From assembly GCF_014904695.1 (NCBI RefSeq), contig NZ_JACXXN010000042.1, positions 1 to 42,464 of the forward strand: DNA of 42,464 nt, written 5' to 3'. Both the position numbers and the translations under genes were made by a program. The stretch is from Nostoc sp. MG11 (GTDB lineage: Bacteria > Cyanobacteriota > Cyanobacteriia > Cyanobacteriales > Nostocaceae). This document shows, one piece after another, positions 3,042-33,805 of this stretch (the stretch's first letter is position 1; the number at the start of each line of letters is the position of its first letter). The notes under the pieces were generated by a model, which did not search any database, had not been told where the DNA came from, and was given only the letters and a program-made list of their open reading frames with translations.

Positions 3042-3149
3042 TGTTTTCGTCCTGTGAGGTGAGTTTGAATTAAAGGGGCTGACCGCCAGAGACTTCCATC
3101 TCTAATGCACTTGCCCATAGAGCATTTTTTCGGGGCATAACTATGGTTT

Positions 3150-4028
3150 TCAGCCCAAGACGGCTGGTTTGAGCACGTCTTCACACCACTGGCGAAAGCT
3201 AGTAGGGGTGGTGGATGGCGACGTGCGCGGGTCGATGTTGTAAATGCCCTCATCTTGAGCCGCTGCCATATCGACCATGCCTTGCACCCATGCCTCGGTC
3301 ATCCCGCGCTGCATCATCGTCGCTTTGTAGTCCTCGCTGCTGACCTGCTGGAAGCGGATCGGTCGTTCCAGCACTTCGGACATCACCTGCGCCATGTCGT
3401 TGGGCGATAGCTCGTCAGGACTGACCACTGGCACGCTGCCCTGCCCACTCCAGGAGTCGTCGAGCAGCAGTTTGACCGCTACCTCGGCGATATCAGAGGT
3501 GGCGACAGTTGCAAGCTGTCGATCGCTGGAATTCGGCATCAAGAACATCCCCTGGCTGGCGATCATTTTGACCTGGTTGAGCAAGTTCTCCATAAAGAAC
3601 GGCATTCGCAATGCTCGGTAGCTCACGCCAGTACTCTCGATTAGATCTTCCATCGCGAACGCCGCCGACTGCAACCCAGCGTTCTTGCCGAACTCGCGAC
3701 CCAGGCTCGTGACACCGACTACACGCTTAACACGCTGGCTCTTGATTGCTTCGCACGCTGGACGGGTAAAGTCCATGTAGTAGTTTGTGGGATTATCGGT
3801 GTGAGGGTTCGGAGGCACCAACCAGAACACGCAGTCAGCACCTGCGAACGCCTTGGTAACAACATCAATGTCGTCGTGAGAACCCTCCACAATCTCGACG
3901 CGATCGCGGATCTTTGGATCGAGACGTGAGGGGTCGCGCACGATGACACGAATCGGCTTGCCGCTGTCAATGATTTGATCAAGAATTTGTTGTCCGATCT
4001 GTCCAGTGGGCGTGGTAATAACAATCAT
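3150..4028 (-). CDS. NmrA-like / NAD(P)H-binding reductase
   Basis: A 292-residue atypical SDR. The start MIVITTPTGQIG at 4028 is chosen because GGAG lies just upstream and because the paralogue at 270 starts at the same residue; a longer in-frame start at 4118 has no such support. The N-terminal Rossmann loop TGQIGQQ is followed by IVRDPSRL, VEGSHDD and VFWLVPP, as in NmrA and related quinone reductase-like proteins. The second half has RALRMPFFMENLL, typical of this family. Such proteins bind NAD(P) and either reduce quinone-like substrates or act as redox sensors. A 5' fragment of a near-identical copy stands at 99-270. Confidence 0.88.
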   Translation of the reverse strand: MIVITTPTGQIGQQILDQIIDSGKPIRVIVRDPSRLDPKIRDRVEIVEGSHDDIDVVTKAFAGADCVFWLVPPNPHTDNPTNYYMDFTRPACEAIKSQRVKRVVGVTSLGREFGKNAGLQSAAFAMEDLIESTGVSYRALRMPFFMENLLNQVKMIASQGMFLMPNSSDRQLATVATSDIAEVAVKLLLDDSWSGQGSVPVVSPDELSPNDMAQVMSEVLERPIRFQQVSSEDYKATMMQRGMTEAWVQGMVDMAAAQDEGIYNIDPRTSPSTTPTSFRQWCEDVLKPAVLG

Positions 4029-23631: not shown

Positions 23632-23784
23632 GTGTCCAGGCTCGCATGAACATGGACGATCGTGACTGAAGAAAGGCAGGGGGCAGTCCCAATGAAACAA
23701 GTTTCACCGCCAAGCATGAAAGTCTCTTTCTCCCCCTGCCTCCTGAATTAAATTTGGACATCATCAATTCAAAGGAAGAAAATT

Positions 23785-25737
23785 ATGTCTGAAACAGTAA
23801 AAACGCCACAGATATCAGAAATTGAAGTGCTAGCATCGGGTCTGGATAGCCCCCGGAAGCTGAGTTTTGGCCCAGATGGGGCACTTTATGTTGCCGAAGC
23901 AGGACGAGGAGGAACAGGTGCTAGTGTTCCGTCTCCCAGTCAACCGGACGCATCTTTGTTCTATGGTGCAACGGGTGCGATTACTCGAATTCAAAACGGT
24001 GTTGCAGAACAAGTCGTAACCGGACTACCGTCGCTGGCATTACCCGATGGATCGGATGCATCAGGTGTCAGTGATATTGAGTTTGATGCCTATGGAAACG
24101 CTTATGCGATCGTAGGTCTTGCCAGCAATCCAGCCAATCGAGATGACGTGCTACAAGTTCCCGATTTCAGCCAGTTAATCGCGATCGGTAACTTTGACGG
24201 TGGTGCTTCCTGGACAAGGCTGCGGGATTTTGGCGCTTACGAACAAAACAACAACCCCGATGGGCAAGATGTCATTACCAACCTCTATGACTTGTTGATT
24301 AAAGACAATACCGCATACGTCATTGATGCAGGTGCTAATGATTTGCTCTATCAGCGAGCCTTCGGCGGCGAAGTGACTCTAAAAACAGTCTTTCCAATTC
24401 GTACCACAACCGATCCGCTCACGGGTGAAGCAGTGGTGCGGCAGCCTGTACCTACTTCAGTCGCCGTTGGCCCGGATGGCGCTCTCTATGTCGGCGAATT
24501 GACTGGGTTCCCTTTTCAAGCAGAAACAGCACAAGTTTATCGCATCAATGAAGAAGGTCAACCGGAAGTCTATGCAGGAGGATTTACGAATATCGCTGAT
24601 ATTACCTTTGATGACGCTGGCGGTTTATATGTTCTGGAATATGATGCGGATGGAATTTTGAATGGCAGCGACGCAGGTGCGCTGATTTACGTGTCTCCGG
24701 ATGGCAAAACTCGCACGACGATCGCCGATGATGAATTAACGAATCCGACAGGTCTAGAAATTGGTGCTGACGGTGACATTTACATTTCCAATAAAGGCTT
24801 TGTTGCCGGACAGGGAGAGGTACTGCGGTTGAGTTTAGAGCAACAGACATGCTTCGATCCCGACCCGATTTATAACAAGGTGAAGCATTACAGAACCACA
24901 ATTGCCGCAGATGGCGATCCAGCCGATGTGTATTATCCAGTGCTGCCAAATTCAACGCCGGATCAACTGCCGATCGCGCTGATGCTGCAAGGTGCTCTGG
25001 TCGATAAAGCAGACTATTCTAACTATGCACAGGCAGTCGCCAGCTATGGATTTGTGGTCGTGGTTCCCAACAATCAGCGGACGGTAACCGCACCCAATGG
25101 TGAAACGGTGACAGGTCTACTTTCTGAGCAAGGGCAAGTAAATGATGTACTGGATCAGATGAAAGTGGAAGATGCCGATCCGACTTCACAGATTTTTGAA
25201 ATTGCCGATACCGAAACGCTCGGACTCCTGGGACACTCGTTTGGCGGAGCCGTCGGATTAGGCGCAACACAGGACGAGATTTGCATACCCGGAATTTGCT
25301 CCCAAGACTACACAATTCCTCCAGAGTTGCAGGCAGGTATCTTCTATGGCACTAGCTTCCGCGATCAGCAAACTGGAAAATTCCTGCCCATCGATAACGA
25401 AGGAATCGCAGTCGGGCTGATTCAGGGCAGTTTGGATGGCGTGATTCCACCGATCAATAGTCAAACAACTTACGATCAAATTCTCAACCCGCCCAAAGTT
25501 TCAGTTACCGTAGAAGGTGCGAACCACTATGGCATCACCAACGAAGACAACCCTGAGCGGGAGCCAAACAGACCCACCTTAGGCCAAACCACGATAACTG
25601 AGACGATCGCACGCTGGAGTGGATTATTTTTGCGATCGCATCTTCTCGACGATCAAGGTGCATTTAATTATGTCTACAGCACTGGCGACAATCTCGATCC
25701 GAATGTGAATGTGATTAGTCAAACTCCAGTGTATTGA
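23785..25737 (+). CDS. ScyD/ScyE-family beta-propeller fused to a chlorophyllase-like hydrolase
   Basis: A 650-residue two-domain protein. Residues ~10-355 are a ScyD/ScyE-family propeller: LASGLDSPRKLSFGPDGALYVAE, AITRIQNG, LPDGSDASG, VAVGPDGALYVGELTG and similar NHL-like blades. Family members are usually stand-alone exported proteins of scytonemin and related clusters. Residues ~365-650 form an alpha/beta hydrolase of the chlorophyllase / PET-hydrolase-like group: LGLLGHSFGGAVG with nucleophile S485, SLDGVIPP with D551, and GANHYGIT with H581, a full catalytic triad. The N-terminus (MSETVKTPQISEIEV) shows no signal peptide, unlike typical ScyD/E proteins. An AAAGGA ribosome site precedes the ATG. 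No scytonemin genes are near. Whether this fusion is known elsewhere I cannot tell. Confidence 0.87.
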   Translation: MSETVKTPQISEIEVLASGLDSPRKLSFGPDGALYVAEAGRGGTGASVPSPSQPDASLFYGATGAITRIQNGVAEQVVTGLPSLALPDGSDASGVSDIEFDAYGNAYAIVGLASNPANRDDVLQVPDFSQLIAIGNFDGGASWTRLRDFGAYEQNNNPDGQDVITNLYDLLIKDNTAYVIDAGANDLLYQRAFGGEVTLKTVFPIRTTTDPLTGEAVVRQPVPTSVAVGPDGALYVGELTGFPFQAETAQVYRINEEGQPEVYAGGFTNIADITFDDAGGLYVLEYDADGILNGSDAGALIYVSPDGKTRTTIADDELTNPTGLEIGADGDIYISNKGFVAGQGEVLRLSLEQQTCFDPDPIYNKVKHYRTTIAADGDPADVYYPVLPNSTPDQLPIALMLQGALVDKADYSNYAQAVASYGFVVVVPNNQRTVTAPNGETVTGLLSEQGQVNDVLDQMKVEDADPTSQIFEIADTETLGLLGHSFGGAVGLGATQDEICIPGICSQDYTIPPELQAGIFYGTSFRDQQTGKFLPIDNEGIAVGLIQGSLDGVIPPINSQTTYDQILNPPKVSVTVEGANHYGITNEDNPEREPNRPTLGQTTITETIARWSGLFLRSHLLDDQGAFNYVYSTGDNLDPNVNVISQTPVY

Positions 25738-25933: not shown

Positions 25934-26257
25934 ATGATGAACCAAAACAAAGAGATTTACGATTGTGTCATCGTCGGTGGCGGCTGTGCCGGACTCAGTG
26001 CGGCACTCCTTTTGGGCAGAGGTCGCCGCCGAGTGTTAGTCTGCGACAAAGGCAATCCGCGCAACGCTTGGGCGCACGAGTCGCACAGTTTTTTCACCCG
26101 CGACGGCATCAGTCCACACGAACTTTTGAGCATCGGGCGCGACCAACTCAAACCCTACAAAAGCGTCGAATTTCAAGCGATCGGTGTCAAGGAAATCAAA
26201 CCATCCGGCAACCAATTTGGGGAAGAGCTGGCGAAGCTGTCACTAAGTACAAACTAA
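25934..26257 (+). pseudogene. Thioredoxin-reductase-like flavoprotein, N-terminal stub
   Basis: 107 codons start YDCVIVGGGCAGLSAALLLGR (FAD-binding GGGCAG), then the family motif NPRNAWAHESHSFFTRDGISPHELL. Relatives continue to about 300 residues with an NAD(P) domain. Here the frame diverges after about residue 90 and stops. GGAAAAAG lies just before the ATGATG start. The stub keeps only half of the FAD domain and is unlikely to work. Confidence 0.85.
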
Positions 26258-32607: not shown

Positions 32608-33805
32608 GGCTGAAGCCGAATAAATATAAGAGTGTGACCGTTTTAGGATAAAAAAAGATAGGTCAGGTATTCTCAACAAGACCTATCAAATGATAATTTT
32701 ACCTAAATTCTACCAAAACTACTTTGAAAATCTACTTACACATGCACAGTACAAGATGCTCGAAATCTTAATCATGCTGTTGCAGTTTCATAAAACAGTG
32801 ACGATTGAGAAGCTCTCATCTGTATTTCCCCAACCGATAAAATTTGAAAGTCGGCGACGCAGTATTCAGAGGTTTTTATTGTTGCCGCAGTTATCAATTC
32901 AATTCCTCTGGTTTCCAGTACTAAAACGATGGGTCAAAAACAACCGAAAATCAGTGAATAAACAACTGATATTTGCCATTAATAGAACACAGTGGCGCGA
33001 TGAAAATGTGTTTGTAATCAGCTGAATTGAACACAAAAGAGCCATACCAGTTTACTGGATATTATTACCAAAAAGAGGATGCAGTAATTTGAGCGAGCAG
33101 AAAAGATTAATCCGCCCATTGCTACGGTTGTTCAAAGGATATCGAATTCTTGTACTGGCAGACAGAGAATTTCATAGTATAAAACTGGCTCATTGGTTAC
33201 ACAGTGAGGGAATTGACTTTGTGCTGCGTCAAAAACAAGGCACCTATATTCGCCAAGAAAATGAATCATATCAAAGCTTACAATCTTTGGGATTAAATCC
33301 TGGTATCTCGTTCTTTTTAAACAGGATTCAATCTACCAAGCAGAAAGGTTTTGGAAAATTCAATTTAGCCGGATATTACAAGCGCAAATATCGTGGCAAG
33401 CTAGAGCCTGCGGGCTGGTTTTTACTCACTAACCTTGACAGCCTCAAAGATGCAATTAAAGCATTTAAGTCGCGAAGTGGTATTGAGGCGATGTTCGGTG
33501 ATTGCAAGACTGGGGGCTATAATCTCGAATCTACTTATGCTGATGGCCAACGCTTGATAGCATTGATTTTATTAATTGCTATTGCCTATACTTGTGCTAT
33601 TTTAGCTGGTCGTAATTCTCGCTCTTTGGGACTACAAAACTATGTTGGTCGTCTGAAAGAATTAAAGCGATTACACCGCCGACATAGCGCATTTTGGGTC
33701 GGTTTGTATGGTCGCTTTTGGCGAAGTTTCCGCAGTGGGGATTGGTGACGGTAGAATTGAAAAATAAAAAAGCTTAAAATTTGTCTTTTTTATTCAAATT
33801 CAGCC
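32608..33805 (+). mobile_element. IS4-family insertion sequence, inactive
   Basis: A transposase pseudogene (32690-33748) lies between imperfect inverted ends: GGCTGAAGCCGAATA at 32608 and the complement of TATTCAAATTCAGCC ending at 33805. A small hairpin (GATAGGTC ... GACCTATC) lies between the left end and the start codon. The ends are my estimate from partial complementarity. Confidence 0.6.
32690..33748 (+). pseudogene. IS4-family DDE transposase with TGA stop and lost catalytic Asp
   Basis: A 352-codon frame broken only by TGA at 33023-33025. The N-terminal HTH part leads to FAINRTQWRDENVFVIS-stop-IEHKRAIPVYW. Relatives have AIDRTQW, so the first catalytic aspartate is asparagine here, and a tryptophan-type codon has become TGA. 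The second aspartate (LADREFHS) and the glutamate (GIEAMFGDCKTGGYNLE) remain. Two lesions make it inactive. Confidence 0.85.

Follow-up and report, generated by a model that had tools for sequence, protein, structure and literature searches.

The propeller proteins ScyD and ScyE, encoded in the scytonemin (scy) operon, are together with ScyF putative PEP-CTERM proteins, according to excerpts of two papers (PMC12188702, PMC4870267). In the same excerpts, loss of scyE abolished scytonemin, whereas loss of scyD was without apparent effect on its synthesis (PMC12188702, PMC4870267). The biochemical role of ScyE is presented there as unsettled (PMC4870267, PMC12188702): in the excerpt of one paper of this pair, it is argued that ScyE has no direct action in the last scytonemin steps and that its domains offer no clear clue, and in that of the other, a working model has ScyE dimerising the monomers. 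A second relevant protein is OaCLH, an assayed chlorophyllase which, in the excerpted text, cleaves chlorophyll (Chl) a, Chl b, BChl a and pheophytin a; its S159A and H258A variants were inactive, and D226N retained 21% activity (PMC7802212). Removal of the predicted 28-residue signal peptide of OaCLH eliminated >95% of the activity on Chl a, and turnover of Chl a was slow (kcat 0.65e-3 per s), as given in the same excerpt (PMC7802212). Because of this slow turnover, chlorophyll may be a side substrate rather than the natural one.

In this study, a gene joining relatives of these two proteins was analysed in the window, by which is meant the whole stretch of 42,464 nucleotides examined (Nostoc sp. 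MG11, contig NZ_JACXXN010000042.1). As ScyE is needed for scytonemin and its role is unsettled, such a natural fusion of a propeller with an enzyme of known reaction type offers a testable clue to what ScyE-type propellers bind. The assayed cyanobacterial relative needs its N-terminal segment; the fusion has the propeller in that place, and export signals are missing. The features of the gene are as follows.

23785 to 25737, + strand: fused gene, ScyE-type propeller plus chlorophyllase-type hydrolase, 650 aa; ATG at 23785, stop ends at 25737
23773 to 23778, + strand: AGGAAG, likely ribosome binding site by its sequence, six bases 5' of the ATG
23812 to 24837, + strand: propeller domain, residues 10-351
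24838 to 24849, + strand: short linker, residues 352-355, the fusion point as placed by the pLDDT dip and the domain match boundaries
24850 to 25734, + strand: alpha/beta hydrolase domain of the OaCLH type, residues 356-650
25237 to 25239, + strand: codon of Ser485, nucleophile in GHSFG, aligned with OaCLH Ser159
25435 to 25437, + strand: codon of Asp551, aligned with OaCLH Asp226
25525 to 25527, + strand: codon of His581, aligned with OaCLH His258
25282 to 25299, + strand: Cys500 and Cys505, both retained in lone relatives, where they possibly form a disulfide

The open reading frame was uninterrupted over its 650 codons, as the original prediction had described. A GGAAG or GGAGG motif was present at about the same distance from the start in four relatives (L008, L009, L014 and L058). 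In a profile search, residues 14-349 scored 358.1 bits against NF033206 (ScyE_fam; cut-off 80), which places the propeller in the ScyD/ScyE family. The hydrolase passed PF07224 (Chlorophyllase) marginally, with 27.5 bits against a cut-off of 26 over a partial stretch, residues 392-490. These two matches agree with the predicted union of a ScyD/ScyE-family propeller and an alpha/beta hydrolase. The fused protein did not reach the gathering cut-off of PF12740 (PETase; 25.8 bits against 28), and differs in this from the PET hydrolase/cutinase family, being nearer to OaCLH; the cut-off was reached by the relatives L061, L040, L062, L073 and L080. Two known families are combined here in a new domain architecture, which does not amount to a new kind of system.

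In the structure model of the fused protein, each domain was folded with high confidence, with an overall pTM of 0.65. The pLDDT fell to 71 in the block 351-360, the ScyE_fam match stopped at residue 349, and structural matches to hydrolases started at residues 355-356. Each of the 50 structural-search (VIA) rows shown matched one domain only, and the mutual arrangement of the two domains is not fixed by the model. The order of an N-terminal propeller followed by an alpha/beta hydrolase is also that of the S9 (prolyl oligopeptidase) peptidases, as excerpted from PMC11878206, and PF00326 scored 15.7 bits in the window protein and 27.7 bits in the lone relative L061. A hydrolase gated in this manner, with the propeller filtering access to the active site, is nevertheless highly improbable, given a propeller of another family (ScyE/NHL type, with no PD40 or Peptidase_S9_N hit), a hydrolase nearer to chlorophyllase and PETase, and a modelled arrangement too loose (pTM 0.65) to provide evidence of gating. 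Assignment to the S9 peptidases themselves was rejected, as the PF00326 score was under the cut-off of 22.6. No S9 chain was present among the 50 VIA rows shown, a result that does not exclude the fold.

Full-length fusions were found in seven other genomes (L008-L013 and L058), giving eight distinct genomes with the window included. Identity to the window protein ranged from 69 to 94% (L008, 94%; L009, 89%; L010, 81%; L058, 80%; L011, 75%, with a match running one residue past its stop; L012, 74%; L013, 69%), and the Ser, Asp and His were kept in all eight fused proteins. With these copies in other genomes, an assembly join was rejected, as was the alternative that the relatives are always two separate genes. 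A chance open reading frame was rejected on the profile scores and the dN/dS values. Both domains were spanned by a match in 5 of 145 genomes sampled from the family, 3 of 291 from the order and 2 of 386 from the phylum; these counts are lower bounds, as only the best few candidates per genome were scored, and they come from overlapping samples that each include the window's own genome. In a genome-contig scan, 6 of 21 loci had a both-domain match. The named carriers were labelled Nostocaceae, Calotrichaceae, Oscillatoriaceae or only Cyanobacteriota, and L058 had the group code f18. Separate propeller and hydrolase genes lying side by side were not seen, the closest same-contig pair among the matches listed being about 18 kb apart when read by eye (contig C91 of genome G044). 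A plasmid-borne fusion was not found in PLSDB, where none of the 11 matching records covered 80% of the query. No description of the fusion was found in the open-access literature, to which the search was largely confined, most subscription journals being outside its coverage.

The hydrolase half was 53% identical over 297 residues to the protein L080. We infer that L080 is OaCLH of Oscillatoria acuminata PCC 6304 (AFY81906.1), because six numeric parameters (325 aa, MW 34783, pI 4.55, GRAVY 0.157, instability 37.42, aliphatic index 101.14) and four residue positions (S159, D224, D226 and H258) agree with the published values; the GHSWG motif is also as published. The chlorophyllase-like label given from the sequence alone was thus appropriate. 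The triad lies at Ser485, Asp551 and His581, exactly where it had been predicted, and these residues aligned with S159, D226 and H258 of OaCLH, within a shared GHSxG motif in the case of the serine. Among 31 aligned hydrolases including that of the window, the Ser and His were invariant and the Asp was present in 29 (Glu in L045, Asn in L082). Homology to an assayed enzyme therefore supports a predicted serine-esterase triad chemistry. Stand-alone homologues of this half occur widely among cyanobacteria, with identities of about 45-67%.

OaCLH differs from the fused protein in being a lone 325-aa protein with a 28-aa N-terminal segment, where the fusion has a propeller of about 350 aa. The OaCLH match started at OaCLH residue 31, just after the predicted signal peptide; the segment needed for OaCLH activity was absent from the fused protein, and the propeller precedes the match instead. 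With regard to the substrate, hydrolysis of a pigment or polyester-type ester had been proposed. The polyester part of this proposal is without direct support, as the protein resembles PETase in fold and profile only. It is most improbable that the protein is a lactonase or quorum-quenching enzyme with the propeller as helper. Such an enzyme would be in line with weak matches to NF047920 (UilS; E 0.0013 for the window protein and between 6.9e-05 and 4.3e-04 for four relatives), but with a cut-off of 400 bits these scored only 18.5 to 22.7, and the hydrolase is much nearer to OaCLH.

A complete scyABCDEF operon was present in the same genome on another contig (G000 contig C161, 203224-211771; L101, 3225-11772), with ScyA, ScyB, ScyC and ScyF above their equivalog cut-offs and two ScyE-family proteins with PEP-CTERM hits. 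The operon ScyD/E were only 37-46% identical to the fused propeller, depending on the alignment, and for this reason the fused gene is, on sequence grounds, regarded as an additional propeller branch separate from them. For scyA, scyB, scyC and scyF of this genome there was no match in the window at E <= 1e-3, and scyD and scyE matched it solely at the fused propeller itself, which is concordant with the predicted absence of scytonemin genes nearby. A role as scytonemin enzyme was rejected, since a scyABCDEF set is present elsewhere in the genome and the fused propeller belongs to a different branch. Although the fused propeller is of one family with ScyD and ScyE, these two are separate scy-operon proteins that bear signal peptides and putative PEP-CTERM tails, and the marks of ScyD/ScyE proper were lacking in the fusion (no hydrophobic N- or C-terminal stretch, no PEP-CTERM hit, a location outside the operon). 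Twenty-seven propellers, including the fused one and the ScyD/E of the same genome, had 27 invariant columns in common, and this conservation speaks for a retained site in the propeller.

The expectation that stand-alone relatives are exported held for most of them, as judged by a hydrophobic N-terminus, and the fused protein had no visible signal peptide, in agreement with the original prediction (best 19-residue hydropathy mean of 0.27 in the first 60 residues). Outside the fusion clade, by simple thresholds that we set and with some propeller rows truncated at the locus end, a strongly hydrophobic stretch before the domain was present in 22 of 26 lone hydrolases and a PEP-CTERM-like tail in 15 of 26, and the corresponding figures for lone propellers were 28 of 29 (hydrophobic N-terminus) and 22 of 29. 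In L080/OaCLH the N-terminal hydrophobic stretch was present and the PEP-CTERM-like tail absent. The N-terminal hydropathy maxima of the eight fused proteins were 0.15-0.44, compared with 1.44-1.99 in ten relatives chosen as putatively exported, and profile scans detected no RTX or PEP-CTERM match in the fused protein. Because the OaCLH match starts behind the signal peptide and the ScyE_fam match ends at residue 349, the fusion joins the mature parts of both parents. Outside the fusion clade, the Cys500/Cys505 pair was complete in 22 of 23 rows; inside it, 3 of 8 rows had the full pair, four had neither Cys and L038 had one. The fused gene of the window keeps both. This pattern would be compatible with a disulfide that has become dispensable and, together with the missing export signals, suggests a move to the cytosol. 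As the export signals of both parents are missing, the product is most likely cytosolic.

It is unlikely, by comparison, that the protein is still an extracellular enzyme, exported without a signal peptide, with esters outside the cell (polyesters or debris, for instance) as its substrates. The majority of lone relatives look exported, the Cys pair is kept in the window, the PETase-type profile and fold matches would suit such substrates, and the hydrolase of L073 carries RTX repeats (42.6 bits, cut-off 23). On the other hand, RTX and PEP-CTERM hits were lacking in the window protein, a hydrophobic N-terminus was lacking in all eight fused proteins, and the full Cys pair was missing in 5 of the 8 fusion-clade rows. 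The chlorophyllase-type hydrolase of L073 (778-2412, - strand) has its RTX calcium-binding repeats at the C-terminus, so C-terminal export-type signals of other kinds exist in the family. The lone propeller L036 starts with an RTX-like motif, under the Pfam cut-off, and with the L073 repeats this makes export by another route possible. A second hydrolase copy adjoins the RTX-repeat hydrolase of L073 on the opposite strand (3114-3881, + strand).

The hydrolase tree comprised 39 rows, and in it the eight fused hydrolases grouped in one clade (SH-aLRT 99.8) with five lone hydrolases that have propeller pieces at the locus. The lone hydrolases lay at three places inside this clade, of which the strongly supported branches force at least two, and a separate clade of the eight fused hydrolases was rejected (p-AU 0.00135). 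This rejection is in keeping with propeller loss and not with several fusions. The trees thus fit, as far as sequences can tell, a single fusion event, after which reduction left a lone hydrolase at three places and, in other relatives, lone propellers. The three places differed in their remnants. In L061 and L028 the propeller remnant covered about residues 3-40 and then jumped to about 308-332, and that of L028 was also out of frame. L002, from the same genome as the window (contig C205), and L038 had the propeller end only, from about residues 332 and 284, and G035 (L037) retains 117-226 and 387-650. The C205 lone hydrolase (G000, 321743-322585; L102, 9744-10586, - strand) had a short propeller remnant and a shortened C-terminus, and its longest listed frame opens with GTG. 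It would seem to descend, in truncated form, from the fusion that this genome also carries. The dN/dS values between lone hydrolases were 0.45 (L002/L038) and 0.88 (L038/L039, with few changes), and those between lone hydrolases and the fused L011 and L012 were 0.16-0.23. Some of the remnant-bearing lone hydrolases may be decaying genes rather than working enzymes.

The propeller tree, of 54 rows, placed the fused propellers in one clade (support 100) together with L023, L024, L027 and 12 lone propellers that we labelled remnant-bearing. The lone label needs five changes on this tree, of which the strongly supported branches force only one; the placement of L028_2 and L061_1, which fill only 11% of the columns, is meaningless. 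Hydrolase remnants in the lone propellers L014-L021 ran like residues 351 to 390-399. The C-terminus was also represented in L059 (626-643), L060 (606-639) and L036 (617-641, out of frame behind a stop). Among the 12 lone propellers so labelled, the L022 remnant was weak (E 0.01), and the remnant search gave none for L026 and none for L025, though the whole-query alignment of L025 reaches residue 394. The family is an example of a fusion whose halves have separated again in a number of relatives, with traces of the missing half left behind. In L023 and L024, a C-terminal domain of another, unnamed kind replaces the hydrolase on the same propeller type. By eye this domain was Calx-beta-like, an assignment that the Pfam scan of L023 did not support, with no hit there.

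For intact fusions, dN/dS was 0.11-0.16 in the propeller (8 of 8 pairs) and 0.12-0.25 in the hydrolase (7 of 8 pairs, one being saturated), and both halves are under purifying selection. In eight lone-lone pairs of lone propellers, the propeller gave 0.15-0.27 and the remnant hydrolase tail 0.45-1.28; two pairs with the window, mixing both states, gave 0.33 and 0.38 for the tail. The pairs were picked by us and the tails are only 30-45 codons long, so that the tail values are rough. The main rival to a coupled enzyme is that the domains are independent modules on one chain, an esterase and a propeller with its own ligand, sharing expression and no mechanism. This is a real possibility, although we hold it to be less probable than not. 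It is consistent with the relatives that have either half only, with the selection kept on lone propellers whose hydrolase remnant is relaxed by the above values, with the pTM of 0.65 and with the other C-terminal domain in L023 and L024; the retention of both halves and the triad in all eight intact fusions, across a linker of about four residues, argues against it. Of the predicted coupling of a substrate-holding propeller to an esterase, the true fusion was upheld, but the relatives with one half only indicate that coupling is not always needed.

Identity between the window and L058 was uneven along the gene, at 87-89% in codons 401-500, 84% in codons 601-650 and 59% in codons 551-600, the last being a region in which L058 was 85% like L011. 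Within 25285-25584 of the window (codons 501-600), identity to L058 dropped from 87-89% to 77% and 59%. This mosaic across the catalytic Asp/His region suggests gene conversion. Between the window and L009, dS was 0.50 in the propeller and 0.21 in the hydrolase. Such uneven identity and dS imply that segments have been exchanged, which makes the count of losses less certain than the single-clade result.

The explanation that we prefer, and to which we give an even chance of being right, is a cytosolic chlorophyllase-type serine esterase of the OaCLH family, which arose by one fusion and has a propeller that would bind a ligand or present it; its location, its substrate and the coupling of its domains are the conjectural parts. 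An exported OaCLH-family ancestor would have been joined once, at the end of its signal peptide, to the mature propeller taken from an exported protein of the ScyE family, and the product, with the export signals of both parents lost, would most likely reside in the cytosol. The hydrolase half would cleave a hydrophobic ester, such as that of chlorophyll, a chlorophyll-like molecule or another pigment, via Ser485-His581-Asp551. The propeller, with its family-invariant residues kept, might bind the ligand and present it, or hold the enzyme near it, and so take over the role of the hydrophobic N-terminus that OaCLH needs for activity. Several points weigh against this explanation: the fusion lacks the segment without which OaCLH lost activity, coupling is dispensable for the relatives with one half only, the window keeps a Cys pair fitting an exported enzyme, OaCLH is slow on chlorophyll a, the pTM is 0.65, the neighbours indicate no pathway, and other export routes are possible. 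A bolder version, which we consider doubtful, is that ScyE-type propellers bind hydrophobic pigment-like molecules, which in the fusion would pass directly into a chlorophyllase-type active site within the cell. If true, the fusion would be a Rosetta stone for ScyE-type propellers, and would represent a cytosolic pigment-processing enzyme made from two exported parents and repeatedly taken apart again.

Ten neighbours in the window were scanned, and were two SDRs, an alpha/beta hydrolase, a PapA/condensation-type acyltransferase, RidA-type and SnoaL-like proteins, a short FAD/NAD-binding fragment, a CAAX protease, and AraC and TetR regulators. The other fused loci had genes for cupins, BBE-type FAD oxidases, RidA, SnoaL, GMC oxidoreductase and pyridine-nucleotide oxidoreductase. 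Under strict limits no printed neighbour cluster occurred in more than 3 of the 8 fused loci, and no conserved operon partner was found; under looser limits a cupin-containing cluster was found in 4 of 7, in a comparison where clusters were named from one member each and flank lengths differed among loci. The neighbours point to oxidative or secondary metabolism generally and name no pathway. Among 11 propeller-only loci without hydrolase, an intradiol dioxygenase was nearby in six (L014, L017, L019, L020, L021 and L025) and a DUF981 protein in five; of the six loci with the dioxygenase, five had the DUF981 protein and four a lipocalin-like gene. The FAD/NAD-binding fragment at 25934-26257 of the window (107 aa) looks truncated, its relative in L010 (6481-7434) having 317 aa. 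A transposase-like open reading frame, recognised by eye at 33089-33748 of the window, was also present in L025.
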